This document shows positions 3,456-43,178 of a stretch of 64,000 nucleotides of DNA, piece after piece. The DNA is taken from assembly GCA_021464245.1 (NCBI GenBank), contig JADCRB010000041.1:124001-188000 (forward strand), given 5' to 3'. A program made the position numbers and the translations under genes. The notes under the pieces were generated by a model that saw only the letters and a list, made by a program, of their open reading frames with translations, searched no databases and was not told the origin of the DNA. The stretch's first letter is position 1; each line of letters opens with the position of its first letter. This stretch comes from Carallia brachiata (lineage: Eukaryota; Streptophyta; Magnoliopsida; Malpighiales; Rhizophoraceae).

Positions 3456-4518
3456 TGTAAAGCGTAAATTTCGAGTCTAAAACAATTAAACTCGAAAATA
3501 CAAAAATAAATTACAAATAAATATTTAAAAATAAAAGAAAATTTACGTGGGGTCGATCTCCGTAGATCCTCCGATTAGTGTTCCTTTTTCGATCTCCGTA
3601 GATCCTCCGTCAAGGGCTGCACGAGCTTGATCTTGACAGAAATAAATTCCACAGATTTTTCTTGAACTGGGTAGACTGAAACCGGATCTGATTTGGACGT
3701 TTTGGCTACGGTTAAGAACCGCAGACCTGATCTGAGCCGATCTGGCTTAATTTCACCGAGGGTCGAAGAGACTTGTTCTCGGATGAGCTGCCTGGATTTT
3801 GCTGAGGGCCGTATGAGGTTAATCCCAGCCGATTTGTAGTAATTTGATATTTTTAACTCTATTCTCAGAAATTCAGATCTAGGCGATCCAAGAATATAAA
3901 TTTAAAAATAACTTTAGAAATGGAAACAGCAAATTTTTTGAGCCTTACCCCTGAAATATCTCTCAAAACGGAGTTAGGAGAGTATACTGCTAAGTAAAAG
4001 CACGTAAGAAGAAGAGAAATTTTCTTGAGAGATTTTCAAAATTTTCTTTTTCTCTCAAATTCTCTGGATTTTTCTGTTTACAGATTTGCTGAATGTGTTT
4101 TGAACTGGGGGGGTAGGGGCCTATTTATAAGGCTTTCTTTCGTTGTGAGAAATGTAATTTCAATTTGAAATTAATTCCCCACAGCTCCTGTGTGCCTTTT
4201 CTGTGATTGGCTCCTTCCTTCTCTGGAGATTTTGAGCCTATTTATAGGCTAGGAGAAGGCACTGTACCACCAACTTTTCGTTGATTTTTTTTTTTTTCTT
4301 CTTCTGCCTAACTTTGATTTTTTTTTTCTTTTTTTTTTTTTTTCAACTTCTGGAAGCTGACATTTGATTTTTCTTTCCTCTTTTTTTTTTCTTCATCTGC
4401 CTAACTTTGATTTTTTTTTTTCTTTTTCAACTTCTAGAAGCTGACATTTGAGTTTTCTTTCCTTTTTTTTTTTTTTTTTTCATCTGCCGAACTTTGATTT
4501 TTTTTTTTGTCTTTTACA
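3456..4518 (-). repeat. 3' LTR of element 1
   Basis: Starts TGTAAAGCG and ends CTTTTACA in plus-strand reading. It aligns throughout with 13164-14204. It carries a TATA-like TATAAATAG on the minus strand near 4121-4129 and a second near 4231-4240. A 20-bp segment at 3554-3573 is repeated at 3590-3609; this duplication is absent from the other LTR and so postdates insertion. Confidence 0.95.
4295..4510 (-). repeat. U3 tandem repeats with TTCnnGAA dyads
   Basis: About two and a half copies of a roughly 85-115-bp unit combining a T-rich run, a CTGCC(T/G)AACTTTGA block and a CAACTTCT(A/G)GAAGCTGACATTTGA block. Each full unit holds a palindrome: CTTCTGGAAG at 4347-4356 and CTTCTAGAAG at 4431-4440. 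Both match the two-unit core of a heat-shock element. The same array is in the 5' LTR at about 13990-14200. Confidence 0.7.
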
Positions 4519-4535
4519 AATGCCCCCACTTCAAG
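4519..4535 (-). promoter_or_regulatory. polypurine tract of element 1
   Basis: Immediately inside the 3' LTR the minus strand reads GAAGTGGGGGCAT, a purine-rich tract in the expected place for plus-strand DNA priming. Confidence 0.7.
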
Positions 4536-4777
4536 GGTCGGTAAGGAAGAATTTTGCAGACGTGATCCGCACCGAGTCTTGAAGTCCAGTTTGAAATTTG
4601 GAAACGTCCTATTGAATCTTGGAGTCTTCTATCTTTGAATATGTCTGCTGTTGTTGGATCGCAATAGGAATCTGATACGATCTTGAGAAAGTTAGCACCC
4701 CAGCCAATATAAAAATTGACCTTCTGGCTCCAGGTGCATTCGAGCTTCCATAGCCCGCAAAGGATTTTTTATATCTC

Positions 4778-5152
4778 TTAAAGTTCCAGAGCTCTGGTGA
4801 GGATGATCCGGTAGGCAAAGAACTTGAACCTCCCCAAGAGGAAGGCCCAGCACTTTGGAACTTTAAGACCTGCGCACAGAGAGACTGACTGTAGTGATGA
4901 TTTCCAAGTCTGCTTCGACGTAAGGAGAGTAGTTGGAACTTCCCTGTACGTCGCCGCATCCAAAGAAAGATTAGGATGATTGCAGCGTCTCATCCCTCTG
5001 TGGTAGTTGTGAACTAAGGAGAGTAGTTGGAACTCCATGACATCGATGGCGTTAGGGATCCCTCGAGGAAGACTACTCCTTCTTTTCTTAGCTCGTGCGC
5101 CTCCAACTTCTTGATCGAAGAATTTCCTGAGACAAGTGCAGAGACTAGCCAT
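4778..5152 (-). CDS. short conserved accessory ORF downstream of WOX (element 1)
   Basis: A 124-codon frame beginning MASLCTCLRKFFDQEV, with an AAAATGGCT start context. It lies between the WOX ORF and the 3' LTR on the same strand. Its first 34 residues are matched in element 2 (25065 and downstream, beginning MANLFICLRKFFDQEV) with mostly conservative changes, including a basic KKRRSS-like stretch. After that the two copies diverge, so the rest may not be coding. I recognise no domain. It could be a captured exon, part of the WOX-derived 3' untranslated region, or a true extra ORF, which Tat elements are known to carry. Confidence 0.35.
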   Translation of the reverse strand: MASLCTCLRKFFDQEVGGARAKKRRSSLPRGIPNAIDVMEFQLLSLVHNYHRGMRRCNHPNLSLDAATYREVPTTLLTSKQTWKSSLQSVSLCAGLKVPKCWAFLLGRFKFFAYRIILTRALEL

Positions 5153-5333
5153 TTTCTTTTGAGAAAGAAGAGCTGAGGAGTGAGTATTATGGCTCGGACA
5201 TGCAGGATATATATACATAACATAAAGAGTTTTTTTTTTTTTTTTTGAAAAGTCATAAAGAAGGTACGCAGGGTCATCCACGTCCCTTTCCTGCATAAGA
5301 GACAAAAGAGGCAGCGACTGACGCGTGTCACGA

Positions 5334-5393
5334 AAGTCGTTACCGTGTATTGCAGAAGTCGTTGCCGTGTGCTGCAGAAGTCGTTGCACCTTA
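5334..5393. repeat. 22-bp tandem repeat after WOX stop
   Basis: Units begin AAGTCGTT at 5334, 5356 and 5378, giving a 22-bp period and nearly three copies. They sit about 15 bp beyond the WOX stop codon in the transcribed direction. Element 2 keeps the array at about 25240-25295 with a slightly different third spacing. Confidence 0.8.
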
Positions 5394-5407
5394 TCTTGTC
5401 GGCCGTC

Positions 5408-6019
5408 CTAGCGGGGCCCGAGGCGCAGCTCCAAGTCAAGCTCGATCTTGTCTGGTGGGCCGCTGATGTTGACGTCGCTTTCCGGCTGGTTGATGCTGCC
5501 GGAATATTCTGGAAAGAGAGGCAAAGTTTCGCTAGAATGACTCCTTTCTGCTAGAAAATGTCCTCCTAGACTTAAGTACCTAGGAGGGATGAACCCTTGG
5601 CTGACTCCGTAAGACCACCAGGACCAGCGTGCATGCTCCCATGGGCTACGGCTTTGATGAACATACCGTGGAGAGACTATTGCGGTGGAAGAACTCGGAC
5701 CTGCTTCATTTGACGGCGAAGTTGTACTGGTGGGATCTACCATCGGAACAGCAGACTGTTCTTTGGAAAAATCAGCTCTCAGTGCTGGTTTCTTCCTGCT
5801 TCTCCGATTCTGGAACCAATAAAACACATTTTTTCCTTCGATTGCCCCGAGTGAGCGCAATCGTGAGACAAGTTGGTAAATCTGAGATGCATTAGGCATA
5901 ATACCTCCATTGTTGTGGAAGACTTCCTCTAAAATTTGCAGTTGCGCCATGGTTGGTTGCCACCTTGTGCGGGGTGACCTTTCTTCTCCCTTGTCTTGAG
6001 GTTCTGCAACTGGTTCCAT
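5408..6019 (-). CDS. WUSCHEL-related homeobox (WOX) protein captured by retrotransposon
   Basis: An uninterrupted 203-codon ORF on the pol strand, between integrase and the 3' LTR. Residues about 16-78 form a WOX-type homeodomain with the enlarged loop typical of the family. It includes TRW at the start, RLRSLGAIEGKNV, and recognition-helix residues FYWFQNRRSRKK (66-77). A canonical WUS-box, TLPLFP, is at 165-170, and a C-terminal LDLELRL (194-200) fits the EAR-type LxLxL repression motif. WOX proteins are plant nuclear transcription factors controlling stem-cell and organ identity; WUS-box and EAR motifs recruit TOPLESS-type corepressors. The WUS-box and EGKN signature point to the WUS clade, but RRSR in helix 3 is more like WOX11/12, so the clade is uncertain. 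Start is the ATG at 6019; element 2 keeps an open frame further upstream. No intron interrupts it. I infer capture from a spliced transcript. Confidence 0.9.
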   Translation of the reverse strand: MEPVAEPQDKGEERSPRTRWQPTMAQLQILEEVFHNNGGIMPNASQIYQLVSRLRSLGAIEGKNVFYWFQNRRSRKKPALRADFSKEQSAVPMVDPTSTTSPSNEAGPSSSTAIVSPRYVHQSRSPWEHARWSWWSYGVSQGFIPPRYLSLGGHFLAERSHSSETLPLFPEYSGSINQPESDVNISGPPDKIELDLELRLGPR

Positions 6020-6153
6020 CTTTCTTGTGGCAGAGGAGCAAAGGTCTTGTGTGTGGTGAAGATCGATTGAGACTGATGCTGAGTTTCAGACTCAAACCTT
6101 CCGTCGCTTTTATATTTTTGGGCCGTTCACAGTTTATACTCATGCGGGTCAGG

Positions 6154-6440
6154 AGTTGGATTGGATTTTGAACTTGGTTTCTGGACTGTGTTTGGAACTT
6201 GGAATTTTTTGGGTTTTGGGCTTTGAATTGAATTTGGGTTGAGTGTTTGGGTTTTGGATTTGGATTTGGGTTTTTGGGACGAGTGTTTGGGTTTGGATTT
6301 TTGGGTTTGGATTTTCGCTTGGACTTTCAGATCGGGACTTCCGAATTTTTTTTTTTTTTTTTTTCGATTTTTTTTTCTCTTTTTTTATTGATTTTTTTTT
6401 CTTCTCTTTTTTTTTTGATTTTTTTGATTTTTTTTTTTTT
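6154..6440 (-). repeat. low-complexity spacer between integrase and WOX
   Basis: Plus-strand reading is a TTTGGGTTTTGGATTT-like array (about 6165-6330) followed by nearly pure T with scattered C, G and A (about 6343-6442). On the transcribed strand this is CCAAA/CCCAAA repeats and an A-rich tract. Element 2 has the same kind of spacer at about 26095-26430. It separates the integrase stop (6451-6453) from the WOX start. Confidence 0.75.
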
Positions 6441-6450
6441 TTAAACATAT

Positions 6451-7600
6451 TTACACATAATATTGTTTCAGAAATTTACCATTGATTGGGCCGATTCGGA
6501 CGCCTTCTTGGTCTGACAGCATGTAAGCGTTGTGAGTATAGGCCTCCTGCACTAGGTATGGCCCATCCCATTTGGAAGTAAGCTTGTCACCAGGCCGATG
6601 CTTCATGTTGATGGGCCGTCGCACTGCAAGAACAAGGTCTCCAACTTGAAAAGATCGAGGGCGGACCCTGCGGTTGAACGTGTTGGTGAGCCGGGCTTGG
6701 TAGCACTCAAGTTGCTGTTGTGCTTCGAGCCTCCTTTCATCGGGCTTCTAACTCATCCAGACGTAGGCGAGCATTCTCCTCCTGTGTGAGTCCTTCCAGA
6801 ACAGCCATGCGCAGGGATGGAATCTGTGTTTCCAACGGCAGTATTGCTTCGACACCGTAGACAAGTGAGTATGGCGTCGCCTGTGTTGGAGTCCGGTAAG
6901 TTGTACGATACGCCCATAATGCCTCCGGAATTCTGTCATGCCAATCTCTTTTGGATTTAGAGACTACCTTCCGCAACAGGTTGCATAAGGTCTTGTTGAA
7001 TGCTTCGGCCAAGCCATTTGCTGGGGCATTGTACATGGATGACTTGTACTGCTTGAACTTGAACTTCTCGCAGAGCTTGTCGATAAGCTGTTGTAGAACT
7101 GCTTACCATTATCAGTGATGATGAATCGAGGGACTCCATAGCGATAGATCAGCTGAGTCCGGATGAAATTGGCAACATGCTCCTTCTTTACCTCTCTAAG
7201 TGGAATGGCTTCAGCCCATTTTGAGAAGTAGTCGGTTGCTGCGAGGATGTACAGGTGACCCAGGGATGACTTTGGCAAGGGCCCCACTAAGTCGAGACCC
7301 CAAGCTTCAAAGGGCCAGGATGAGACAGTTGGATGCAGTGGCTCCGGTGGTTGATGTATGTAATTCGCATGAAATTGACAAGCTTGACAGGTTTTAGCAA
7401 ACTCAATTGAATCACGTACCATGGTTGGCCAGTAGTATCCCATCCTTCTGAGTTGGAAGTGCAACTTAGGCCCTGATTGATGTCCGCCACAAACACCAGA
7501 ATGTGCTTCAGTGAGAGCCTGTTTTGCCTCTTCATTGGCTAGGCAGCGAAGTAGAACTCCATCAAAAGACCTTCGATACAGAGCATCCTTGAGTATATGA
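6451..7600 (-). pseudogene. integrase of element 1 (frameshifted)
   Basis: The retroviral integrase domain, which inserts element cDNA into chromosomes. An HHCC zinc finger is seen as EAHSG..GGH (about 7490-7530) and CQACQ. The catalytic core has GLDLVGP (first Asp), IITDNGKQF (second Asp) and ANGLAEAFN (Glu). The C-terminal part reads through KPGDKL-like and LKQYYV to a TAA at 6451-6453. Between ITDNGKQF and NAPANG the frame shifts (the readable segments are 6964-7464 and 6737-7036), so the protein is broken as read. It lies directly upstream of the WOX ORF. Confidence 0.85.
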
Positions 7601-7629
7601 AGCGGGGAGCTCGTCGTTGAATTTCTGTC

Positions 7630-8280
7630 TTATGACGACGATCTTCGGGCAGCTTCCCGTGCTGTAGTAGTCAATGATTGGTTGGCGCCAATCCTCGTCC
7701 TCCGCGAGACGTACAGATACAGTTGGCTGCTGTAGTGTAGTTTCTTCATCATCCTTTGTGGCACTATCCATTTCTGGCATACGGCAACAACTGTAGCCTG
7801 GATTTCTGACTTTGCAAGAGAAGTGGCCAGGTTAGCCAACGCGTCTGCCTGAGTGTTTTCTCGTCGAGGCACATGCTCCAAGGTGATGCTTTCAAATTCA
7901 TCCATTAGCTGTCGAGCACGTTGATGGTAAGGCGCAAGGTCCTCTTTCTTCACATCATACAATCCTGTAAGTTGGTTGATGACGAGCTGGGAATCTCCAT
8001 GGACTTCTATAGTTGGAATCTTCATATCGACAGCCATTTGAAGACCAATGATCAAAGCCTGGTATTCAGCAACATTATTTGAACATAACTCACCGAGAAT
8101 GATAGCATATGGTAGTATTTGTCGTTGAGGAGTGACAAACACTATGCCGGCACCAGCACCATCACGCCTTGCTGCACCATCAAAGAACATCGTCCATGGT
8201 GGCAGTGTCTCAATGTAAAAGACCTCTTCATCTGGAAGATCATCTGTGAACTCCCAATCTGGGAACAGGGTGATCTGCAA
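7630..8280 (-). CDS. second, archaeal-type RNase H domain of element 1
   Basis: A 216-codon open segment of the polyprotein. It contains a full RNase H fold with all four acidic residues: FFDGAA, NNVAEYQAL, VHGDSQLV and NTQADALANL. This extra RNase H after the RT-linked one is diagnostic of the Tat lineage of plant Ty3/gypsy elements. The domain covers roughly residues 28-160; the C-terminal 50 residues look out of frame with the continuing polyprotein. Confidence 0.85.
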   Translation of the reverse strand: MQITLFPDWEFTDDLPDEEVFYIETLPPWTMFFDGAARRDGAGAGIVFVTPQRQILPYAIILGELCSNNVAEYQALIIGLQMAVDMKIPTIEVHGDSQLVINQLTGLYDVKKEDLAPYHQRARQLMDEFESITLEHVPRRENTQADALANLATSLAKSEIQATVVAVCQKWIVPQRMMKKLHYSSQLYLYVSRRTRIGANQSLTTTAREAARRSSS

Positions 8281-8299
8281 GGAAGTCTGCTAGAGCTTG

Positions 8300-8656
8300 T
8301 CCTTTGACTGCTTTTTGAGGCACGTAGACAATGTCGTAGCTTTGTAGGATTACTGCCCACTTGGCAAGTCGTCCTGACAAGATTGGTCTAGATAAGATAT
8401 ATTTGACAGGATCAGCTCTGGCAATGAGACGTACCGTGTGAGCTGCATGTAGTGCCTCAGCTTGTCAATGGCAAAGAACAGTGCTAGACATGTCTTTTCA
8501 ATGGGCGAATAACTCAGCTCCGGACCGTTTAGTGTTCTGCTCAAGTAGTACAGGGCAACTTCCTTTCCCTGCTCGTTTTCCTGTGCAAGCAAGGCTCCCA
8601 AAGATCTTTCCTGCGCTGCAATGTAGAGAATCAACGACTTTCCTTGAATTGGAGCC
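8300..8656 (-). pseudogene. RT-linked RNase H domain of element 1 (frameshifted)
   Basis: Open segment 8350-8634 reads LYIAAQERSLGALLAQE, SYSPIEKTCLALFFAIDKLRHY and so on. This is the RNase H-like domain that follows reverse transcriptase in Ty3/gypsy pol. The frame is lost after RHYMQ compared with element 2, where the same place reads RHYMQAHMVRLIA. It is separated from RT by another frame break near 8657. Confidence 0.8.
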
Positions 8657-9556
8657 CTAGGACGGTGGATTGGAAAGGTACTTCTTTATGCTCTCAAAGG
8701 CTTTGCTGCAAGCTTCGTCCCACTCGAAGTTGACATCCTTCTTCATCAACCGATGGAAAGGTTGACATCTCCCAGCTAAATTGGAGATGAAACGGCGAAT
8801 GTAGGCCAGCTTTCCTTGTAGACTTCGCAGCTCGTGCAGGTTTTTAGGTTCAGGCATCTTTTGAATTGCCTCAACCTTTGACTGATCAACTTCGATTCCA
8901 CGATGGCGCACCACGAACCCAAGAAACTTTCCTGATGTGACACCGAATGCGCACTTGAGAGGGTTCATTTTGAGCTGATGCCTCCGAAGTCTTTCGAACA
9001 CTGTCTTGAGATCCTCGAGGTGGTCTTTGCGCTTCTTAGTCTTTACAACTAAGTCATCAACATAACATTCTACAATCTTGTGCAGCATGTCATCAAAAAT
9101 TTTTTGCATAGCACGTTGATAAGTGGCGCCAGCATTTTTCAATCCAAACGGCATAACTTTGTAGCAGTATATACCTTTTGGGGTGCGGAATGCTGTCAAC
9201 TCCTCGTCTTCTGGTGCCATTCTGATTTGGTTATAGCCTGAAGAACCATCCATGAAAGACAATGCTTCGTGACCCGTTGTTGCATCGACTGTGATCTCCG
9301 TTATGGGCAACGGAAAGTCATCTTTCGGGCAGGCCTTGTTAAGATCTCGAAAATCAACACATACCCTCAACTGTCCATTCTTCTTTCTTACCGGGACAAT
9401 GTTGGCAATCCACGTTGGGTAGGTGACCTCTCGGATGAAGCCGGCATTGATCAGCTTGTTCACCTCCTCCTCGATTTGTGGAATGAGTTCCGGGCGGAAC
9501 CGTCGTTGTGGCTGCTTGACAGAACGGACACCCTTCTTTACTGCTAGACGATGCAC
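8657..9556 (-). CDS. reverse transcriptase domain of element 1
   Basis: A 299-codon uninterrupted segment with a complete Ty3/gypsy reverse transcriptase: VCVDFRDLNKACP (residues 65-77), FMDGSSGYNQI, MPFGLKNAGATYQRAM, and the catalytic YVDD at 165-168. It copies element RNA into DNA in virus-like particles. The preceding linker lies in another frame at 9544-9774 (FVSALLTAEEEQEYV, DVFAWSYKEMPGL), so one frameshift separates linker and RT near 9550. Confidence 0.92.
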   Translation of the reverse strand: MHRLAVKKGVRSVKQPQRRFRPELIPQIEEEVNKLINAGFIREVTYPTWIANIVPVRKKNGQLRVCVDFRDLNKACPKDDFPLPITEITVDATTGHEALSFMDGSSGYNQIRMAPEDEELTAFRTPKGIYCYKVMPFGLKNAGATYQRAMQKIFDDMLHKIVECYVDDLVVKTKKRKDHLEDLKTVFERLRRHQLKMNPLKCAFGVTSGKFLGFVVRHRGIEVDQSKVEAIQKMPEPKNLHELRSLQGKLAYIRRFISNLAGRCQPFHRLMKKDVNFEWDEACSKAFESIKKYLSNPPS

Positions 9557-9961
9557 CGCAATTTTGGGTCAAGTCCAGGCATTTCTTTGTAACTCCATGC
9601 GAACACGTCCCTGTATTGACTTAATACCTGAACATATTCTTGCTCTTCTTCTGCAGTAAGTAAAGCACTTACAAATGTAGGTCGAGGATCTTCCGGAGAG
9701 CCAAGATTGACCTCCTTGAGTTCATCAACAGTTGCTTGGCCACCATCTTCAAGTTCCGGGGGAGCCTCCTTCACTTCACCATCTGATGAGTCGGAATCAG
9801 CCTCCTCGCTAATTGTGACATGAAATGCAGAACCTCTGACTTCACCTTCTTTGTTTGACTGGATAAGCCTGTCTGTTTGGTGGTGGTGGTGATGGCACGT
9901 GCATCAGCTGCTCGGCTTCGGCTCTTTAGCGTGATCCGCACAGGTGACTTCTCCTGATAGC

Positions 9962-11221
9962 CTAAGCCAGGTCGGGACTGTGATGTTTGAGAAGCGGCGC
10001 CATGTGTGGACGGCAGCGTACCCATTGTGCTCGGGTTTGAAAGTCATAGCCCGCCTTTGCCAAAAGCTTGTATGCATTAGGATCAAATCCTTCATGTGTT
10101 CTTCTTTCTGGAAGTGAGCCGCCTTCGACTGCCCCCGTGTGTGGTTTGACGAAGCCTTTTAATGGTTTTGAAGAAACCGGCTCAATCTTTGGTATCGGCA
10201 GAGTGTAAGTCTCCTTCAGGTTGTGCAGCTCCTTTGTTTTGGGTTGGCTATGACCTTGCTCCTGTTTAAGATCAATACAATAAGAGAAAGGGGGTTGACC
10301 TTCTGAGCGTCGTGACTTCGGCACATAGCGTAGGACTGGAGTGGAGCTTGAAGATGCAACATCCTTCGGACGAAGTTCAGCAGGCTGTGGCAGCTTTTCA
10401 TTTGTTGGAGCCTGGGGTTGGGCATTGGCAGGTTCTTCGACAGCTTTTCCCTTTTTGTGGATGCCCCCAGTCCAAGTAGCTTTTGATGGAATGATCTCCG
10501 GATTGTCTGTGTCGGTGTAGAAGACTGCATCCGCCAAATGTGATTCAGCATCATCGAACGGCTTTAAGTCAGCATTGACCTTTTGAACGCCACCATTGTA
10601 GTACTTGAAGCACTGATGCAGGCTTGAGAGCACAACTCCATTTCCATGAATCCACGGTCGTCCTAGCAACATCTTATATGTGGTACGTGCATCAATCACG
10701 TGAAATAGAGTGCTAGAAGTGAGATTACCGATAGTTAGCTCCAAGCGAATCATCCCAATTGCTTTCTGTCCTCCTTGATTAAAGCCATGAATCATCAAGC
10801 GGCTGTCTGATAATTCATCAATGCCGATGCCGAGCTCCTTTATGGTGGATTTTGGGATAATATTGACTGCTGACCATCGTCGATCAGAATACGTCGGACC
10901 TTCTGTTCTCACATAGCCTGATACATACAGCGGCCGATTGTGGGGTTTGGACCCCAGCAGGAGATCCTCATCTGAAAATGAGATAGCAGAGTAACATCCG
11001 ACGTGATTTTGGTCCGCCTGTTGCTCCGCTGAGTTAGACTCATTTGATGGCTGTGATTCAGCTGAGGTCTGGAGAGTATTGCTGACTTGATTTTGCCACA
11101 CTTCTGTTGATTGCAAAGCTATAAACAGCTGAGGGTTAGCGAGAAGGGTTTGGAGAGCTTCATATACCTTCTCCGTTGTCGACTTTTTGTTGTCGAGCGG
11201 CTCCTCCTTACGGTGTGTCAC
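9962..11221 (-). pseudogene. gag C-terminus/aspartic protease region of element 1
   Basis: A 419-codon frame. Residues about 105-200 correspond to a retropepsin-like protease (SAVNIIPKSTIKELG, GNLTSSTLFHVIDARTTYKMLLGRPWIH). Element 2 reads a DDGS active-site motif just before VVNIIPKS. In element 1 a 2-nt and a 1-nt deletion on either side put that stretch out of frame, replacing DDG with DRRW although the ORF remains open. The protease is therefore probably inactive despite its long ORF. The C-terminal half is proline- and lysine-rich linker. Confidence 0.8.
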
Positions 11222-11689
11222 CTCTTCTGATGGTTTTGAAGTGATGGTGGTTGGTTTGCGAGGTTACGCCTTCCTGGTCCAGAATGATTTTATTCTGGCT
11301 TTTGAGCTTCATGATTAGCTCCTTCAGGACGAACACTTCTCGGTTGGATGACTTACTATCCGGTGATATTTGCAGAATCTCGGATCGCTGACTCGATCCT
11401 TTTCATTCGGCCGCTTGCACTCTGGGAGTTCGATCAGCTTCGCCTCCAGGAGTTGGTCAAGATGTCGGGGACGTCTGAGTCGGGGAATGGATACTGCTTC
11501 TGCTCCAACTCTCGCAATGTCACCTTCCGCCTTTCCTGTTGTTTTGGCTGAGTTATTTGGGTCGGAGGATTTACCTTAGCTTTGGCGCCCACTTTTACTG
11601 GTGCGGCTTCAACAGTCATCACTTCTTTCCTTTTCCGGAGCTGTTGGGTTTCTTAATCTCCCTTCTGCCCCCTTGCTGGTCCAACTGGA

Positions 11690-12170
11690 TGGGAACCGTG
11701 CCTCCGGAAGTCTGGATGCTTATCTCCATATCATGTGCGGGTCGCCATTCTTCGAAGTTCGGGGTTTGACACCCTGCAGGATGTATAACAGCTCCCAATG
11801 CATTCCTGGATGCACATCTCCACGGCAGAAGTCTCCGTCAGGCGATCTTTGCAGTCCAAGCTGAGGGCACGCCATCTGTTGATGTATTCGACAACGGGCT
11901 CTCCTTTTCTTTGTTTGGTGCTGGTAAGCTCCATCATACTTACCGTCCTTCGAGTGCTGAAAAATCTGTTGAGGAACTCTCGTTGTAGCTGTTCCCAACT
12001 GTCGATCGATTCTGGTTCAAGATTTATGAACCAGGTGAAAGCGGTCTCCCTGAGTGAACGAACAAACTGCTTCACCAAGAGATCTCCGTAAGTCCCTGCG
12101 TTGTTGCAGGTTTCAACGAAGTGGGCGATGTGCTGTTTGGGATCGCCTCGTCGTCGAATTGTTGAAATTT
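11690..12170 (-). pseudogene. gag core (retrotransposon gag domain), element 1
   Basis: The open segment 11731-12078 carries the retrotransposon gag signature AFTWFINLEPESIDSWEQL, EFLNRFF, and GEPVVEYINRWRALSLDC. Gag builds the virus-like particle. One frameshift separates it from the N-terminal gag ORF (near 12150, compared with element 2). Another lies near 11810, where element 1 has one base fewer than element 2. Confidence 0.85.
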
Positions 12171-12914
12171 GGGCGGCTGGTAGCCCAAGGGCATGTTGAG
12201 ACTTTCGATCCGTCTGGTGTACGGTTTGACGTACATCTGTGATCCTTGGAAGGATGTAGCTTGTTGCAGTCGGATCGTATTGGCTATCATTTCCTGCAAT
12301 TGTTGAACAGATAGCGAAGCTACAGAATTTGAGGGTGGCAGCTGTGTAGAACTACCTGGTCGCTTTTCTGCAGGGAAGACGTCGGCTGGTGTGGCTTCTG
12401 GAGTGAAACCGGGTGGATATGGTTGCTCCTCGCGGATTTCGGGATCAACTTGGATCGGGGCTTTTCCTTTGAGAGCTGCGATCTGTTGATCTTTTTCCTC
12501 CACGACTCTGATCAGCTGCAAAATTTTGTTCTCCAATTCTGAAATTCTTTCCTCTGTGCTGGTTGTGTTGGTCATCATGACGGCAACAGATGAGGCTCCG
12601 GGAAAGACTGGGGGAGAAAACTCTTCTGATTCTTCTGTGTGAGTCGGATTTTGTTGAGCAGGCTTCGTCGTGTTGCCCCCGATTTCGATCGGGGTGGGTG
12701 ATCGACTCCTCCATGCGGCAAGAGAGTCAGGGGAGAGATCCTGTTGTGCAAGCTGTGGACTCTCCATTTCGACATTTTGTCGGGTTTGGACGGCAAGAAA
12801 TTGTGTCCGTCCCCGGGTTTCTGGACCTGCGTACCCAGGTAGGGTAGTTGATGCAGGCAATGGAGCCGTTGCCTTCTTTTTTGTGGCAGCAGTTGTACTC
12901 CTTTTCGGTGCCAT
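12072..12914 (-). CDS. gag N-terminal region of element 1
   Basis: A 280-codon frame starting MAPKRSTTAATKKKA, the first ATG after the 5' leader. It contains a short coiled-coil-like stretch (ERISELENKILQLIRVVEEKDQQIAALKG region, about residues 122-150) and a conserved RRIESLNMPLGYQPPKF block before a frameshift near 12150. Residues after that point do not match element 2 and are out-of-frame translation. Confidence 0.8.
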   Translation of the reverse strand: MAPKRSTTAATKKKATAPLPASTTLPGYAGPETRGRTQFLAVQTRQNVEMESPQLAQQDLSPDSLAAWRSRSPTPIEIGGNTTKPAQQNPTHTEESEEFSPPVFPGASSVAVMMTNTTSTEERISELENKILQLIRVVEEKDQQIAALKGKAPIQVDPEIREEQPYPPGFTPEATPADVFPAEKRPGSSTQLPPSNSVASLSVQQLQEMIANTIRLQQATSFQGSQMYVKPYTRRIESLNMPLGYQPPKFQQFDDEAIPNSTSPTSLKPATTQGLTEISW

Positions 12915-12934
12915 TTGATGTGCTGAACACCTGT

Positions 12935-13034
12935 AAAATTTTTTTTTTTTTTTTTTTTTTTACTTTTTTTTACTTTTACTTTTTACTTTTTTACTTTTTA
13001 CTTTTTTTTTTACTTTTACTTTTTTTACTTTTTT

Positions 13035-13073
<39 letters not shown>

Positions 13074-13115
13074 CTCTCGGCTCCCCTTTTACCTCTTTTT
13101 TTTTTTTTTTTTAAG
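12935..13115 (-). repeat. A-rich 5' leader of element 1
   Basis: The plus strand is a T-rich run interrupted by AC/ACTTTT steps, so the element RNA has an A-rich leader (AAAAAGTAAAAG-like) between the primer-binding site and gag. Element 2 has the equivalent tract at about 32915-33155. Confidence 0.75.
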
Positions 13116-13142
13116 GAACAAGAGATGGGAGGTGAAGATGTC

Positions 13143-13163
13143 CCACCGAGCGTGCCAAAAATT
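13143..13163 (-). promoter_or_regulatory. primer-binding site region of element 1
   Basis: Immediately inside the 5' LTR the minus strand reads TTTTTGGCACGCTCGGTGGG. The internal TGG would pair with a tRNA 3' CCA end. The same site is kept in element 2 (TTTTTGGCACACTCGG). I did not assign the tRNA. Confidence 0.6.
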
Positions 13164-14204
13164 TGTAAAGCGTAAATTTCGAGCCTAAAACAATTAAACT
13201 CGAAAATACAAAAATAAATTACAAATAAAAATTTAAAATAAAAGAAAATTTACGTGGGGTCGATCTCCGTAGATCCTCCGATTAGTGTTCCTTTTTTTGA
13301 CTCCGTCAAGGGCTGCACGAGCTTGATCTTGACAGAAATAAATTCCACAGATTTTTCTTGAACTGGGTAGACTGAAACCGGATCTGATTTGGACGTTTTG
13401 ACTACGGTTAGAACCGCAGAGACCTGATCTGAGCCGATCTGGCTTAATTTCACCGGGTCGAAGAGACTTGTTCTCGGATGAGCTGCCTGGATTTTGCTGA
13501 GGGCCGTATGGCTATAATCCCAGCCGATTTGTAGTAATTTGATATTTTTAACTCTATATTCTCAGAAATTCAGATCTAGCGATCCAAGAATATAAATTTA
13601 AAAATAACTTTAGAAATGGAAACAGCAAATTTTTTGGCCTTACCCCTGAAATATCTCTCAAAACGGAGTTAGGAGAGTATACTGCTAAAAAAGCACGTAA
13701 GAAAAGGAGAAATTTTCTTGAGAGATTTTCAAAATTTTCTTTTTCTCTCAAATTCTCTGAATTTTCTGTTTACAGATTGCTGAATGTGTTTTGAACTGGG
13801 GGGGTAGGGGCCTATTTATAAGGCTTTCTTTCGTTGTGAGAAATGTAATTCAATTGAAATTAATTCCCCACAGCTCCTGTGTGCCTTTTCTGTGATTGGC
13901 TCCTTCCTTCTCTGGAGATTTTGAGCCTATTTATAGGCTAGGAGAAGGCACTGTACCACCAACTTTTCGTTGATTTTTTTTTTTTTTCTTCTTCTGCCTA
14001 ACTTTGATTTTTTTTCTTTTTTTTTTTTTCAACTTCTGGAAGCTGACATTTGATTTTCTTTCCTCTTTTTTTTTCTTCATCTGCCTAACTTTGATTTTTT
14101 TTTTCTTTTTCAACTTCTAGAAGCTGACATTTGAGTTTTCTTTCCCCTTTTTTTTTTTTTTTTTTTCATCTGCCGAACTTTGATTTTTTTTTTTGTCTTT
14201 TACA
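13164..14204 (-). repeat. 5' LTR of element 1
   Basis: The promoter-bearing LTR, TG...CA, followed by target duplication AGATC at 14205-14209. Compared with the 3' LTR it lacks many single bases, mostly within short runs of the same base. It carries the U3 tandem array (dyads CTTCTGGAAG at 14033-14042 and CTTCTAGAAG at 14114-14123) upstream of the TATA box. Confidence 0.95.
13812..13820 (-). promoter_or_regulatory. LTR TATA box
   Basis: TATAAATAG on the minus strand in a GC-richer setting, a plausible core promoter for element 1 RNA. A second TATAAATAG lies about 110 bp upstream (near 13927-13935). Confidence 0.6.
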
Positions 14205-17960: not shown

Positions 17961-18678
17961 AAATTAATTTTAGTTATTGTTCTAAGAGTATCTGTTTTTT
18001 ATGCGTAGTGTTATGTAAGTTATGGGGGATATTTATTCCGCTTTGAATGAATGGAGAAGAATGTTCTATTGAACGTTTCATTGCACCTACTGGATCATCT
18101 GTACGTGCTGCATACAATAGAAGATACATAACTCTAAAGGAATGATTCAAATCTCCCCAATATTCCAGTTCTAAAAAAGTTATGCATATATTCAAATTGA
18201 AAAAGGATCACACTTTGTGTACAATATCTTGAGCTCATTGATGCATTGTAGATGATCAAAGCCCAATAACTTATCCCAGAACAGAACACATGTTATACAC
18301 ATCTCGATATGTATACATTTAATACAAATTTCTTTATAATTATTTGAAAAAAAAATATTTGATTTAGATGAGTGTCTGTATGCTCGACACAGACATTGTC
18401 AATGCAAAAAATAAAAAAAAAAATAAGAAAGCTTATATATATAAAAAAAAAAGTCATAACCAAAGAGTAAAGTCCCATCATTTATTAGAGATAGAGATGA
18501 AGAAGTGCAGCTGCTTGCTAAATAGAAAATTATAAATTTTTTTTTATTGCATGTAATCCGTTAAAATTGCTCTAATTCAATTCGCTAATAAATGATGAGA
18601 CTTTTAAATAATAACTTCAATTGCTCTAATAACTCCAATTAAATAATTTTAAAATAATAATAAAATAATTGTAATAAG
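17958..18678. other. AT-rich intergenic, no gene seen
   Basis: Short frames only, no recognised domain. It precedes the solo LTR directly. Confidence 0.4.
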
Positions 18679-19518
18679 TGTAAATTTTAAATCTAAAATA
18701 ATTAAATTTGAAAATATAAAAATAAATGATAAATAAAAATTTAAAAATAAAAAAAATTTACGTGGGGTCGATCTCCGTAAATCTTCCGATTAGTGTTCTT
18801 TTTTTTTTTTGACTCCGTCAAGGGCTCCACGAGCTTGATTTTGACAGAAATAATTTTCACAGTTTTATCTTGAACTGGGTAGATTGAAACTGGATCTGAT
18901 TTAGACGTTTAGATTACGGTTAAGAATCGAAGAGATCTGATCTGAGTCGATTTGACTTAATTTCACCGAGGGTCGAAGGGACTTATTCTTGGATAAACTA
19001 CCTAGATTTTGCTGAGAGCCGTATGAGACTTGATCCCAGCCGGATTTGTAATATTTTGATATTTTCATATCTATATTCTCATAAATTCAGATTTAGGGTG
19101 ATCAGAGAATATAAATTTAAAAATAACATTAGAAATTGAAACAACAAATTTTTTGGGGTTTAACCCTGAAATATCTCTCAAAAAAGAGTTAAGAAAGTAT
19201 ACTGCAAAATAAAAATACGTAAGGAAAAAGAGAAATTTTCTTGAGAGATTTTTAAAATTTCCTTTTTCTATTAAATTCTCTAAATTTTTCTATTTACAGA
19301 TTTGCTGAATATATTTTGAACTGAGGAGCGATAGCTTATTTATAGGACTCCTTTCAATATGAAAATATTGTGTAAAAGGAAGAAAATTAAAGTCACCAAC
19401 TGTACAGTTGGTGACTTTTGGCCACTGTGGTCGGCATATAATTTATTTTTTTATTAATTAAATTCATATTATTGTAAAAGGCAAAAAAAAAAAAAAAGTT
19501 TACCACTGTGCTTTTACA
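18679..19518 (-). repeat. solo LTR related to elements 1 and 2
   Basis: Starts TGTAAATTTT and ends CTTTTACA. It aligns with element 1 and 2 LTRs over the R/U5 part (TTTACGTGGGGTCGATCTCC, GACTCCGTCAAGGGCT, CCGTATGAG). Imperfect flanks ATAAG/ATAAT look like a mutated 5-bp target duplication. No internal region follows, so it is a recombination-derived solo LTR. A TATA-like TATAAATA sits near 19336-19346 on the minus strand. Its U3 differs from both elements and holds the palindromes listed separately. Confidence 0.8.
19391..19416. repeat. perfect 26-bp palindrome in solo-LTR U3
   Basis: Reads AGTCACCAACTG then TA then CAGTTGGTGACT, a perfect self-complementary sequence. Element 2 U3 has an analogous hairpin (CCACCAACCATTTGGTTGG at about 24291-24309), so an inverted CACCAAC motif recurs in this LTR family. 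Confidence 0.85.
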
Positions 19519-23590: not shown

Positions 23591-24403
23591 TGTAACGGGC
23601 GTAAAACGAGCTTATAACAGTTAGACTTAAAAATACAAAAATAAATATACAAATAAAATTTAAAATAAAAGAAAATTTACGTGGGATCGATTTTCGAAAT
23701 TCCTCCGATTAGTGCTCTTTTGTGACTCTTGTCAAGAGCTACTCGAACTTGATTTGACAGCAGTAAATTCCACAGTTTTATTTTGAACTGGATAGACTGA
23801 AAATGAATCTGATGTAGACGTTTAGAGTATGGTTAAGAATTGCAGAAACTTGATCTGAGCCGATATGACTTAGTTTCACCAAGAGTCGAAGAGACTTGTT
23901 CTCGGGCGAGCTGCCTGAACTTTGCTGAGGGTCGTATGAGGCTTGATCCCAGCCAGATTTGTAATATTTTGATATTTTAGATCTATACCCTCACAGATCC
24001 AGATCTGATGCGATCGGAGAGTATAAATCCAAAATATATTTGGAAAATGGATACAGCAATATTTTTTTGGGATTTACACCTGAGATATATCTCAAAAAGA
24101 AATTAAGAGAGTATACCACAGAATACAAAATCGTAGAATAATGAAAATTTTAAAGAATTTATTGCAATATTTATGTTCGGCGAATTTTTTTTCTTTTTTT
24201 TTTCTACTCTCTCTGCTTGTTTTTTTTTTTCGCTGCCTGGATGCAATTTGGGGGGGAGGCCAATTTATAGGCCTCCCCTGCCTGTCTGCCACCAACCATT
24301 TGGTTGGTGGCATTCAATTTAGGTTGGCAGCTGCCAACCTTGACTTCAAGGTTGGCGGCTGTCGACGCCTCTTTTTCTTTTTCTTTTTTTTTACTAGTTT
24401 ACA
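23591..24403 (-). repeat. 3' LTR of element 2
   Basis: Starts TGTAACGGGC and ends TAGTTTACA in plus-strand reading. R/U5 is homologous to element 1 and U3 is not. U3 holds a TATA-like TATAAATTGG (minus strand, about 24260-24269) and the CCACCAAC/GTTGGTGG hairpin at about 24291-24312. Confidence 0.93.
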
Positions 24404-24915
24404 AATGTCCTCACTTCAAGAGTCGATAAGGAATAATTTTACTGAAGTGATCCGAACCGAGTCTTGAAGTCCAGCTTGAAAATTGAGATGTCCTGTTGAA
24501 CATTGAATGTTGAAGTCTTCTATCTCCGACTAGCCCAACTGTTGTTGGATCTCAACAGAAACTGATATGATCTTGAGGAAGTTAGTAGCCCAACCAATAT
24601 AGAAATTGAAGTCTTGACTCCAGGTGAGGTCGAGCTTACATTGCTCACAAAAGATTTTATATATGTCTTAAAGTTCTATAGCTCCGGTGAGAAAGATCCG
24701 GTAGGCAAAGAACTTGAACCTTCCCATGAGGAAGGTCAAAACTACAGAACTTCAAGACCTGCACACAGAGAGACGGGCTGTAATGATGATTCCCGAGTCT
24801 GCTCCGACGTAAGGAGAGTAGTTGGAACTTCCCTGTACGTCGCTGCATTTGTAGATCCATAAGGACGATCACAACTTCTTGGCTCGCTGCAATAGATGTG
24901 AACTAAGGAGAGCGG

Positions 24916-25065
24916 TTAGAACACCATGACACCGATGGTATTGGAGACTAAGTTTCGAAGGCTGTTAGGGATCCCTCGAGAAGGACTACTCCTTCTTTTA
25001 TTAGCTCGTGCGCCTTCAACCTCTTGATCAAAGAACTTTCTAAGACAAATGAAGAGATTAGCCAT
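24916..25065 (-). CDS. short conserved accessory ORF (element 2)
   Basis: A 49-codon frame starting MANLFICLRKFFDQEVEGA. It matches the N-terminus of the element 1 frame at 5152-4778 at the same place relative to WOX and the 3' LTR. It ends after SNTIGVMVF, where element 1 differs. No recognised domain; conservation is seen by eye only. Confidence 0.3.
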   Translation of the reverse strand: MANLFICLRKFFDQEVEGARANKRRSSPSRGIPNSLRNLVSNTIGVMVF

Positions 25066-25305
25066 TTTCTTTTTGAAAAAAAGAAGAGCTAAAGAGTGAG
25101 TGTTATGACTCGGGTATGCATGGATATATACATACACCAAAGATTTTTTTTTTAAAAAAGTGCACAGAATTGAGTGGGGTCCTCCACGTCTCTTTCCCGC
25201 ATAAGAGACAAAAGAGGCAGCAGCTGTCGCGTGCCACTAAAGTCGTTACCGTGTGCTGCAGAAGTCGTTACCGTGTGCCGCCCAAAGTCGTTGCACCTTA
25301 TCTTG

Positions 25306-25932
25306 TCAACCGTCATAGCGGAGCTCAAGGTGTAGCTCCAAGTCAATCCCGGCCTCGTCCAATGGGCCGATGATGTTGACGTCGCTGGAGCCTTCCAGCT
25401 GGTTGATGCTACCGGAATATTCTGGAAAGAGAGGTAAAGTTTCACTAGAATGACTTCTTTCTGCTAGAAAAGTTCTTCCTGAACTTAAGTACTTAGGATG
25501 GATGAACCCTTGGCTGACTTCGCAAGACCACCTTGACCAGTACGCATACTCCCACATGCTACGGCTTTGATCGTTATAGCCTGAAGAGACTATTATAGTG
25601 GTAGAACTCGGACCTGCTTCATTTGAGGGCGAAGCTGTATCGGTGAGACTTACTATCGGAACGACAGACTGTGCTTTGGAAAAAGCAGTTCTCAGTACCA
25701 GTTTCTTCCTGGTTCTCCGATTCTGGAACCAATAAAACACATTTTTTCCTTCGATCGCCCCGAACGGGCGCAGTCACTAGACAAGTTGGTAAATCTGAGA
25801 TGTATTAAGAATAATACCTTCATTGTTGTAGAAGACTTTCTCCAAAATTTGCAGTTGTGCCATGGTTGGTTGCCACCTTGTGCGGGGTGACCTTTCTTCT
25901 GCCTTGTCTTGAGGTTCTGCAACTGGTTTCAT
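25306..25932 (-). pseudogene. WOX homeobox pseudogene in element 2
   Basis: Equivalent of the element 1 WOX ORF, in one frame for 208 codons except for two adjacent stops (TAG TGA at about 25787-25792) inside the homeodomain after ASQIYQLV-equivalent residues. Downstream, KNVFYWFQNRRTRKK, the complete WUS-box neighbourhood (FLAERSHSSETLPLFPEYSG, identical to element 1) and a C-terminal LELHLEL EAR-like motif remain. Upstream, the frame stays open to 26064 (MAHMSINCERLKN...), a segment that element 1 also has but out of frame. It shows that WOX was already part of the family before these two insertions diverged. Confidence 0.88.
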
Positions 25933-26433
25933 CTTTCTTCTAGCAGAGGGCAAAGGTCTGGTATATGGTGAAGATCGGTTGAGACTGAGGCTAGGTTTCA
26001 GACTCAAACCCTCAATTATTTTTATATTTTTGAGTCGTTCACAGTTTATACTCATGTGGGCCAAGAGTGGAACTGGATTTTGAACTTGAGTTCTAGACTT
26101 GTGTCTAGAACTTGTGATTTTTGGGTTTCGAGCTTTGGATTATATTTGGGTTTTTGGTCTTAGGTTTTTGGGCTTGAGTTTTTGGGCTTTCTTGATTTGG
26201 GCTTTTGGATTTGGGTAGAGTGTTTGGACTTCTCGACTTGGACTTTTGGATTTGGCTCGAGTGTTTGGGTTTTGGATCTAGACTTGGCTTGCAGGTTTTG
26301 GAATTGGGCTTGAGTTTTCTGATTTGGGCTCAAGTGTTTGGGCCTGGATTTTCGGGTTTTGATTTTCGCTTGGACTTTCAAATCAAGAATTTCAAATTTT
26401 TTTTCTTTTTTTATTTTGATTTTTTAAACATAT

Positions 26434-27560
26434 TTATACATAATACTACTTCAGAAATTTAACATTGATCGGGCCAATTCAGACGCCTTCTTGGTCTGAC
26501 AGCATGTAAGCGTTGTGGGTATAAGCCTCCTGAACTAAGTATGACCCGTCCCATTTGGAAGTAAGCTTGTCACCAGGCCGGTGCTTCATGTTATGGTCGT
26601 CGTACTGCAAGAACAAGGTTTCCAACTTGAAAAGATCGAGGGCGGACCCTGCGGTTGAATATGTTGGTGAGCCGGGTTTGGTAGCATTCGAGTTGCTGCT
26701 ATGCTTTGAGTCTCCTTTCATCAAGGGCTTCTAACTCATCCAGACGTAGGCGAGTATTCTCCTCCTATGTGAGTCCTTCCAGAACAGCCATGTGCTGAGA
26801 TGAAATTTGTGTTTCCAACGACAGTATTGCTTTAACACCATAAACAAGTGAGTATGACGTCACCTGTGTTAGAGTCTGGTAAGTTGTACGATACGCCCAT
26901 AATGCCTCCGGAATTCTGTCATGCCAATCTCCTTTTGATTTAGAGACTACCTTCCGCAATAGGTTGCATAAGGTATTGTTGAATGCTTCGGCCAAGCCGT
27001 TAGCCAGGGCATTGTACATAGATAACTTGTACTGCTTGAACTTGAACTTTTCGCAGAGTTTATCGATCAAGCTGTTATAGAACTGCTTGCCATTATCAGT
27101 GATGATGAATCGAGGGACTCCATAGCCATAGATTAGCTAAGTCCGGATGATATTGTCAACATGCTCCTTCTTTACCTCTCTAAGTGGAATAGTTTCGGCC
27201 ATTTTTGAGAAGTAGTCTGTTGTTCCTAAGATGTAAAGGTGACCTAGAGACGACTTTGGCAAGGGCCCCACTAAGTCGAGACCCCGAGCTTCAAAGGGCC
27301 AGGACAAGACGGTTGGATGCAGTGGCTCTGGTGGTTGATGTATGTAATTGGTATGTAATTGGTATGAAATTGACAAGCTTGACAGGCTTTAGCAAACTCA
27401 ATGGAATCTCATCCTTCTAAGCTGAAAGTGCAACTTAGGCCCTGATTGATGTCCTCCACAAACACTAGAATGTGCTTCAGCGAGAGCTTGCTTTGCCTCT
27501 TCATTGCTTAGGCAGCGAAGTAAAACTTTATTAAAAGACCTTCGATACAGAGCATCCTTG
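26434..27560 (-). pseudogene. integrase remnant of element 2
   Basis: Pieces in several frames: HTNYIHQPPEPLHPTV and GLDLVGPLPKSSLGHL (27137-27376), YNALANGLAEAFNNTLC (26765-27070), and RPGDKLTSKWDGSYLVQEAY (26479-26724). The last codons contain a TAG where element 1 has Gln (LK-stop-YYV). A 13-bp local duplication (GTATGTAATTG) near 27339-27364 adds to the damage. Confidence 0.85.
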
Positions 27561-27742
27561 AGATATATGAAACGGGGAGCTCATCGTTGAATTTCTATCT
27601 TATGACGACGATTTTCGGGCAGCTTCCCGTGCTGTAGGTAGTCAATGATTGGTTGGCGCCAATCCTGATCCTTCGCGAGATGTACAGATACAGCGTTCGC
27701 TGCTGTAGTTTCTTCATCATCCTTCTATGGAACTATTCATTT

Positions 27743-28290
27743 CTAGCATACGACAACAACTATAGCATGAATTTCTGACTTTGCAAAAGAAGTGGCCAGG
27801 TTAGCCAACGCGTCTGCTTCAGTATTTTCTTGTCGAGGCACATGCTCCAAGGTAATGCTTTCAAATTCATCCATTAATTGTCGAGCACGTTGATGGTAAG
27901 GCACAAGGTCCTCTTTCTTCACATTATACAATCCTGTAAGTTGGTTGATGACGAGTTGGGAATCTCCATAGACTTCTATAATTGGAATCTTCATATCGAC
28001 AGTCATTTGAAGACCAATGATTAAAGTCTAGTATTCAGCAATATTATTTGAATATACCTTACCGAAAATGATAGCATATGGTAGTATTAGTCGTTGAGGA
28101 GTGACAAACACTATGCTGGCACCAGCACCATCACGTCTTGCTGCACCATCAAAGAACATCGTCTATGGTGGCAGTGTCTCAATGTAAAAGACCTCTTCAT
28201 CTGGAAGATCATCTGTGAACTCCCAATCCGACGGACATGGTTATCTGCTAGGAAATCTGCTAGGGCTTGTCCCTTTACTGCTTTTTGAGG
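27743..28290 (-). pseudogene. second RNase H remnant of element 2
   Basis: The segment 27743-28006 keeps VYGDSQLVINQLTGLYNVKKEDL and NTEADALANLATS. The N-terminal half (FFDGA region, about 28110-28170) is present but separated by stops. Same Tat-type extra RNase H as element 1. Confidence 0.8.
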
Positions 28291-28314
28291 CACGTAGATA
28301 ATGTTGTAGCTCTG

Positions 28315-28680
28315 TCAGATTACTGTCCACTTGGCAAGTCGTGCTGAAAAAATTGGCCTAGATAAGATATATTTGATAGGATCAGCTATGGCAATGAGAC
28401 GTACCATGTGAGCTTGCATGTAGTGTCTCAGCTTATCAATAGCGAAGAACAGTGCTAGACATGTCTTTTTAATGGGCGAATAGCTCAGTTCCGGACCGTT
28501 TAGTATTCTGCTCAAGTAATATAAGGCAACTTCCTTTCCCTGCTCATTTTCCTGTGCAAGCAGGGCTCGAAAAGACATTTCCTGTGCTGCAATTTAGAGA
28601 ATCAATGACTTTCCTTGAATTGGAGCACCCAAGACTGGTGGATTAGAAAGGTACTTCTTTGTACTTTCGAAGGCTTTGCT
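28315..28680 (-). pseudogene. RT-linked RNase H remnant of element 2
   Basis: 28315-28578 reads RALLAQENEQGKEVALYYL, SYSPIKKTCLALFFAIDKL and RHYMQAHMVRLIAIADP. It is more complete at its C-terminal end than element 1 but is broken upstream by a stop. Confidence 0.8.
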
Positions 28681-28692
28681 GCAAGCTTCGTC

Positions 28693-29571: not shown

Positions 29572-29899
29572 GTCCCTGTATTGACTTAATACTGAACATA
29601 TTCTTGCTCTTCTTCTGCAGTAAGTAAAGCACTTACAAATGTAGGTCGGGATCTTCCGAGAGCCAAGATTGACCTCCTTGAGTTCATCAACAGTTGCTTG
29701 GCCACCATCTTCAAGTTCCGGGGGGCCTCCTTTACTTCACCGTCTGATGAGTCGACTCAGCCTCCTCGCTAATTGTGACATGGAATGTAGAGCCCCTAAC
29801 TTCATCCTCTTTGTTTGACTGGATGATCTTGTTTGGTGGTGATGGTGATGGCACGTGCATCGGCTGCTCGGCTTCGGTCTTTTAGCGTGATCCGCACAG

Positions 29900-32885: not shown

Positions 32886-32914
32886 TTGATGTCCTGGATA
32901 ACTGTTAAAATTTT

Positions 32915-33155
32915 CTTTTTTTTCTTTTTTTTTACTTTTTTTTGTCTTTTTCTCTGTTTTGTCTTTTTCTCTTTTCTTTTTCTTTTTCTTTTTTTATTTT
33001 TTATTTTTTCTTTTCTTCTCTCAGTTCCCCTTTTACTTTTTTTTTTTTTTTCTTTTTCCTATTTTTTTTCCTTGGCTCCCCTTTCACTTTTTTTCTTTTT
33101 CCCTTTTTTTCTCTCTACTCCCCTTTTACTTTTTTTTTCTTTTTTTTTTAGGAAC
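32915..33155 (-). repeat. A-rich 5' leader of element 2
   Basis: T-rich with C interruptions on the plus strand; equivalent of 12935-13115. It contains repeated CTCCCCTTTCACTTTTTT-like units. Plus-strand frames here are low-complexity Phe/Ser/Leu translations, not genes. Confidence 0.75.
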
Positions 33156-33196
33156 AAAAGATGGGAGGTGAAGTCCTACCGAGTGTGCCAAAAATT

Positions 33197-43176: not shown

Positions 43177-43178
43177 GT

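Follow-up and report, generated by a model that had tools for sequence, protein, structure and literature searches.

Does a WUSCHEL-type homeobox frame that lies inside an LTR retrotransposon belong to the element or to the host, and what might its product do? The question is raised by a stretch of 64,000 nucleotides of Carallia brachiata DNA (the window), in which the first-pass annotation had placed a 203-codon open frame on the pol strand, between the integrase and the 3′ LTR of a Tat-lineage element. The frame is indeed there, at 5408..6019 (-); it starts with ATG and remains open and uninterrupted over its 203 aa.

The element that surrounds it, A, is a full-length Tat-type LTR retrotransposon at 3456..14204 (-). 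The K2P distance between its 5′ LTR (13164..14204 (-), 1041 bp, with TATAAATA boxes) and its 3′ LTR (3456..4518 (-), 1063 bp) is 0.027. A putative primer binding site, TGGCACGCTCGG... (13140..13157 (-)), is found 6 nt past the 5′ LTR, and a PPT-like purine-rich stretch, AAGTGGGGG (4519..4531 (-)), directly precedes the 3′ LTR. The internal region contains a gag-position ORF (12072..12914 (-), 280 aa) and an ORF of the gag-protease region (9962..11221 (-), 419 aa), both without Pfam match, as well as a reverse transcriptase (8657..9556 (-); RVT_1, 4.8e-35), an additional RVT_3-type RNase H recognized by Pfam (7630..8280 (-), RVT_3 domain at 7633-8280) and an integrase core (6964..7464 (-); rve, 1.6e-8). 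RT, RNase H and INT are on the same strand as the WOX frame. The gag-protease region has homologues among plant proteins, several of them named Ty3-gypsy, and identity exceeds 66% in none of the best 120 of 434 matches. Because the gag-pol domains sit in separate ORFs in three different frames, element A is probably no longer autonomous.

Comparison of the window with itself by blast revealed two full-length elements of one family. The second one, B, is located at 23591..34002 (-), and a solo LTR of the family at 18670..19518 (-), with the exact TSD ATAAT on either side; element B with its WOX and the solo LTR were absent from the first-pass annotation. Both A and B have the paired LTRs with TG...CA termini and the TSDs that characterize LTR retrotransposons, with exact 5-bp duplications on either side of the element, AGATC for A and ATAGG for B. 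The WOX of B (25306..25932 (-)) occupies the same site and frame as that of A, from which it differs by one 6-bp in-frame indel, and it contains two in-frame stop codons (25774-25779). The LTRs of B are separated by a K2P distance of 0.134, and those of A and B differ by 0.37-0.42, far above the pol divergence of the two elements (about 0.09). Plant substitution rates of 0.7-1.3e-8 per site per year would put the age of A at about 1-2 million years and that of B at about 5-10 million years. With three insertions in 64 kb, the family is suggested to be high-copy.

Several other features of these elements and of the window were recorded. The LTRs of B are shorter than those of A by about 230-260 bp; those of A have, at their 5′ end on the element strand, a tandem repeat of 84-89 bp (4288-4515 and 13974-14193) that was not found in the 3′ LTR of B. 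A palindrome (19438-19553) spans the end of the solo LTR. The window also harbors a further LTR element (37959-44034), with LTR-like repeats of about 0.86 kb that are 90.7% identical and with H2C2 and rve integrase domains, a large inverted repeat (47222-48211; arms of 344 nt, 86% complementary, 302 nt apart) and a cytochrome P450 gene split into two or more pieces (48703-50912, Pfam p450). Two UGT85-like glucosyltransferase stretches, at 57001-57968 and 62269-63234, are repeats of one another with 81% DNA identity. Among the best 120 of 4180 matches to the protein of the second stretch, the top one is from Aquilegia coerulea (569 bits, 79%), followed by two from Ilex paraguariensis (562 bits with 50% identity across 85% of the query, and 557 bits with 78%), with further matches in Aquilegia (547 bits, 76%), to an unnamed protein (74%) and in Ranunculus (71%).

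The order RT-RH-aRH-INT is a criterion for angiosperm Tat (Ogre/Retand) elements (PMC6317226). We found this order in the family, with the aRH (RVT_3) identified in A and the native RH in B (28315..28578 (-); RT_RNaseH PF17917, 2.3e-16), where it lies between RT and a stretch homologous to RVT_3. The Tat lineage proposed in the first-pass annotation is thus backed by domain order, with one RNase H domain recognized per copy. The extra ORF of Ogre elements is 5′, ahead of gag; no such ORF was found in A, in which only about 250 bp separate the 5′ LTR from the gag-position ORF. As to antisense frames, the + strand of A has no ORF of at least 120 aa, the longest antisense stop-free stretches have 101 codons in A and 98 in B, and none of the seven antisense stretches of at least 87 codons in A and B matched Transposase_28. 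As neither a Retand-type antisense ORF nor an Ogre-type 5′ ORF was found, we assigned no subclade within Tat.

The comparison of A and B answers the first part of the question. In both full-length copies of the 64-kb window (2/2), the WOX has the same site and orientation relative to INT and the 3′ LTR. Pol-level similarity extends to ~6480, past the integrase core of A, and the alignment of the two elements is continuous from the pol end through the WOX to the 3′ LTR. In contrast, the flanks of A and B show no similarity among blastn matches of at least 100 bp. The different TSDs, the unrelated flanks, the three LTR distances, the common site and the uninterrupted frame together establish that the WOX is inherited element cargo, carried by two lineages that inserted separately, both with the WOX already in place. 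The E-values and the site shared by two independent insertions exclude chance. We considered that a host WOX might have come to lie by chance inside two related elements, or that one locus was duplicated together with its gene, as could be imagined from the distance of less than 30 kb between the two WOX frames. However, the TSDs are intact and differ, the LTR pairs have diverged to unequal extents, and the gene has kept the same placement in both elements and is uninterrupted, which makes a nested host gene extremely improbable. By comparison, WUS-clade host genes of Brassica have two or three exons (PMC6482515), and Arabidopsis WUS has at least two introns (PMC5466438). The Brassica study, in the parts that bear on this point, describes transposons near WOX genes rather than WOX genes inside elements (PMC6482515). 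The first-pass annotation, which had proposed cargo rather than a nested host gene, was therefore right on this point, as judged from the two full-length copies of the window.

As for the origin of the cargo, a host WUSCHEL coding sequence would have entered a Tat-type Ty3/gypsy family, probably when reverse transcription switched template to a spliced WUS mRNA, and would have been transmitted since then in two or more independent insertions. We rejected a LINE-type retrocopy of the WOX flanked by its own target duplication, as A has no direct repeat of at least 8 bp there; around the WOX of B there are two 8-mer direct repeats, which are low-complexity or AT-rich. In A, an A-tract follows the WOX stop codon at a distance of about 157 nt; it could be a poly(A) relic, and is not evidence on its own. 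A host WUS paralogue that had already diverged may have been captured, in which case part of the motif retention would belong to the host.

The encoded protein has the hallmarks of WUS. Its homeodomain (residues ~17-80) is the one Pfam domain of the frame (Homeodomain, 2.2e-12, 47.1 bits for a cut-off of 22.9), and only two PDB sequences match it at E ≤ 0.01, the AtWUS homeodomain 6ry3 (2.1e-18) and STENOFOLIA 6wig (5.2e-16), in agreement with the WOX homeodomain reported by the first-pass annotation. The alignment with AtWUS is gapless over 65 residues, whereas that with STENOFOLIA needs a gap of one residue, at a position where WUS is longer by one. The frame contains FYWFQNRRSRKK, ETLPLFP and a terminal LDLELRL, and both C-proximal motifs thus occur as previously described. 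All features of a modern-clade WOX that we looked for are present, namely the homeodomain with helix 3 IEGKNVFYWFQN, the WUS-box (TLPLFP, residues 165-170) and the EAR-type motif (LELRL) near the C terminus. The best 120 of 420 homologues are WUS-type proteins of plants; their identity to the element protein is 33-53% in the aligned part, and none of them is close. PF00046 and TLPLFP are present in all 120, and LxLxL in the last 45 aa in 116 of them. Among viral contigs, neither a relative of the protein nor a match to the DNA pattern of helix 3 was found.

The homeodomain has nevertheless diverged far from WUS. Over 64 columns it is 46.9-53.1% identical to the 120 WUS proteins, compared with a median of 92% and a lowest value of 56% between WUS proteins (7140 pairs). 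Among the columns that are nearly invariant in WUS, the element protein has kept 27 of 45, versus 5 of 19 for the other columns (Fisher p 0.027), and 31 columns are invariant across the TE protein and 28 WUS proteins hand-chosen among the same best 120 of 420. In a 64-column tree of 31 rows, five of them reference rows, the proteins of A and B pair with support of 98/95 and form their own long branch outside the WUS rows, a placement that calls for caution about long-branch effects; the pair is on the same side as the WUS clade, away from WOX9/11/13, with weak support (84/83).

In AtWUS, residues R38, Q89, N90 and R94 make hydrogen-bonding base contacts, W39 is an anchor, and K82, N83 and Y86 form a backbone cluster (PMC7203112). 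All eight (AtWUS numbering) are retained in both A and B. The hydrophobic base contact A93 has become Ser in A and Thr in B; Arg and Lys stand in place of K92 and R96, Pro in place of T35 and Arg in place of S36, and Y54 is His in A and Tyr in B. As the S36R substitution in AtWUS increases binding to a TAAT probe about six-fold (PMC7203112), a broader TGAA/TAAT preference is predicted for the element protein. The acidic stretch that precedes the WUS-box in WUS has been lost, with 2 acidic residues in 30 aa against a median of 10 in the 120 WUS proteins, only one of which has a count as low. The C-terminal region of WUS with the WUS-box and the EAR motif binds TOPLESS (PMC5466438). Given that the base contacts and both corepressor motifs are retained and the acidic stretch is lost, we predict from the sequence that the element protein is a repressor-only derivative of WUS.

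What might an element gain from such a protein? Plants do not set aside a germline early, and what counts for the fitness of a retrotransposon is therefore its insertions in the stem cells of the shoot meristem. As shoot meristem cells found the germline, the first-pass annotation had conjectured that an element making a stem-cell factor could bias its own transmission. We give a probability of about 0.5 to the reading that the captured WUS was kept as a nuclear, DNA-binding, TPL-recruiting repressor that acts on host sites in the meristem. Until A inserted, its lineage would have retained a nuclear protein with the WUS base contacts, the WUS-box and the EAR motif, while losing much of the remainder, the acidic domain included. 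Meristem cells would produce the protein, either from its own TATA promoter or by read-through from the LTR. It would occupy some of the WUS/TAAT-type sites in host genes, repress these targets via TPL/TPR and thereby shift stem-cell identity, or a stem-cell defence state, in favor of the element. A more specific version, in which a selfish, repressor-only WUSCHEL manipulates development by holding or drawing shoot stem cells into a state that inherits insertions, or by weakening silencing, seems unlikely as it stands. A mobile element with a repressor-motif form of a stem-cell regulator would make it possible to test whether plant transposons go beyond evading silencing and manipulate development, a question for which we know of no earlier direct handle.

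Alternatively, the WUS coding sequence may have been captured by accident and be carried along, decaying and without function for the element, an explanation that we place on the unlikely side. Plant LTR elements contain captured host sequences by the hundreds to more than 1000 per genome (PMC7264820, PMC13317346), and the WOX of B has its two stop codons. The dN/dS of the whole WOX frame between A and B, 0.74, is indistinguishable from that of a neutral simulation (0.73) and close to those of the shifted frames (0.71 and 0.74), so that this single pair does not show purifying selection over the whole frame; the corresponding values are 0.24 for RT, 0.34 for INT, 0.37 for the gag-protease region and 0.57 for gag. 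The K2P distance of the WOX (0.155) likewise exceeds those of the pol segments (0.084-0.103); it is 0.136 for gag, 0.163 for the non-coding 5′ leader of the element, 0.186 for the WOX leader and 0.207-0.315 for the spacers and tail around the WOX. However, the dN/dS test is weak, because roughly half of the divergence between A and B postdates insertion, as indicated by the LTR distances within each element, which dilutes the ratio toward neutrality, and because the pol RNase H, which the element needs, also gives 0.72. Moreover, an accidental passenger would hardly have kept these features. In simulations of neutral erosion to 50% homeodomain identity, with substitutions only and the TE sequence as the starting sequence, the frame was still open in 0.2% of 1500 runs, and in none of the 1500 were the frame, the eight contact and anchor residues, TLPLFP and LxLxL all kept. 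No frameshifting indel separates the WOX of A and B, compared with 25 in six gag-pol segments (4574 aligned bases), a rate at which about 3.3 would be expected in the WOX (Poisson P about 0.035). Nonsynonymous to synonymous changes are 16:12 in the motifs and 42:11 in the linker (Fisher p 0.043, with limits set after seeing the alignment and without the first 16 residues, which have 2:0). Helix 3 has one change in 17 codons and the WUS-box stretch 0:4 in 20 codons, while the EAR segment, with 3 nonsynonymous and 1 synonymous changes, counts against function. Our reading is that the DNA-binding helix and the WUS-box may be under constraint, with a fast-evolving linker. Should it prove to be only a passenger, the WOX would still show clearly that an LTR element can re-insert a developmental transcription factor from start to stop codon, and such insertions would supply hosts with new WUS-like genes.

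If the protein does have a role, the element itself might be its target. Acting mainly on its own LTR or internal promoter, it would resemble the accessory regulators of complex retroviruses, as could be suspected from its position between pol and the 3′ LTR and from the regulatory functions that have been suggested for the extra antisense ORFs found there in Retand elements (PMC11963269). Nevertheless, TGAA, tandem TGAA, TTAATGG, CACGTG and TAAT motifs are no more frequent than in shuffled sequence, both in the 5′ LTRs of A and B and in the regions upstream of the WOX, which argues that host genes are the likelier targets and renders self-regulation highly doubtful. Regarding a defence-related role, WUS restricts a virus in stem cells by repressing methyltransferases needed for rRNA processing (PMC9781121), and 26 of the 54 TE families raised in D7 shoot stem cells of Arabidopsis are LTR elements (PMC7560203). 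By analogy, these two observations make a stem-cell role of an element-borne WUS plausible. They would also suit a competitor, an altered WUS with its base contacts and without its acidic region, which would take over WUS sites in stem cells and interfere with the protection that the meristem owes to WUS. As the repressor motifs are retained, however, the protein may mimic WUS rather than oppose it, and we regard such a competitor as distinctly unlikely. We favor a captured WUS that represses host genes in the meristem.

Expression of the protein could start within the element. The WOX leader (6020..6120 (-)) contains a TATA-like box, TATAAAA, at 6114; this box lies some 95 nt upstream of the start codon and is matched in B at 26026, and there is no intervening ATG in A. 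On the element strand, TATAWAW starts number four in the internal region of A (8645 bp) and eight in that of B (8793 bp), and as such boxes are not rare there, a single site upstream of the WOX is weak evidence. The LTRs themselves contain TATAAAT boxes. On the other side of the WOX, the frame past its stop codon stays open for 209 codons in A (4778-5407 (-)) and includes ATG...MASLCTCLRKFFDQEV, after a stretch, TATATATCC, that is also present in B. The resulting small frame (4778-5154 (-)) has like starts in A and B, after a TATA-like stretch, with an A-B K2P distance of 0.135 at its start. We did not count it as a gene, its first 35 codons having 11 nonsynonymous changes to 1 synonymous between A and B, and no Pfam match being found. 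A 22-bp tandem repeat, AAGTCGTTGCCGTGTACTGCAG, in 2.5 copies (5334-5387), lies just downstream of the WOX.

The first-pass annotation knew of no described retrotransposon with an open WOX and its corepressor motifs. We found none either, nor any retroelement with a homeodomain gene, in the main texts of the literature searched, as distinct from the figures and supplements that hold full domain lists. A screen of 121 angiosperm genomes reported 15 extra domains in LTR elements, nine of which are named: PMD, G-patch, AIR1, DUF1409, LONELY GUY-type YgdH, ribosomal L26, B3, ArgoL2 and 2-ODD (PMC9289625). A homeodomain is absent from these nine and from the main text of that study, which is distinct from its full chart, and the main text of a 2026 review of gene capture mentions neither homeo nor WUS or WOX (PMC13317346). 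Homeo is likewise absent from the main texts of PMC11963269, PMC7264820 and PMC6317226, the first two of which also lack WUS and WOX, and WUS does not appear in that of PMC9289625.

Compared with AtWUS and other angiosperm WUS proteins, the element protein likewise has a gapless homeodomain with the hydrogen-bonding base contacts, TLPLFP, a terminal LxLxL and an MEP N terminus. It differs by its homeodomain, only 47-53% identical, its Arg at S36, the loss of the acidic stretch, its uninterrupted coding sequence and its location in a retrotransposon. Retand elements with antisense Transposase_28 ORFs are also Tat elements with extra ORFs between pol and the 3′ LTR, but their domain-bearing ORFs are antisense whereas the WOX is sense, and the region measures 2.9-6.6 kb as opposed to about 2 kb here (PMC11963269). 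The text of that study, which mined 617 assemblies, reports no sense ORF longer than 600 bp with a known domain in this region (PMC11963269). Maize Bs1 is similarly an LTR retroelement with transduced host gene segments, but these are partial segments of three enzyme or ATPase genes, whereas the element described here carries one regulator from start to stop (PMC13317346). In Phalaenopsis, a host-like extra ORF, an AlkB m6A demethylase, has likewise been kept in a Gypsy lineage with many consensuses; it is an RNA demethylase, active in vitro, in elements of about 25 kb (PMC9289625). The B3 domain of Aegilops tauschii LTR elements is, like the homeodomain, a plant transcription-factor DNA-binding domain, but of a different family, and the results section of the study does not mention corepressor motifs (PMC9289625). 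The LONELY GUY (YgdH) domain of Citrus and Populus Gypsy elements, found in Populus only without the five-consensus filter, is also that of a cytokinin/meristem regulator carried as cargo (PMC9289625). It is an enzyme-family domain in another plant lineage, whereas the WOX is predicted to be a DNA-binding repressor. Its presence in Citrus Gypsy elements hints that meristem regulators may be recurrent cargo of plant retrotransposons (PMC9289625).
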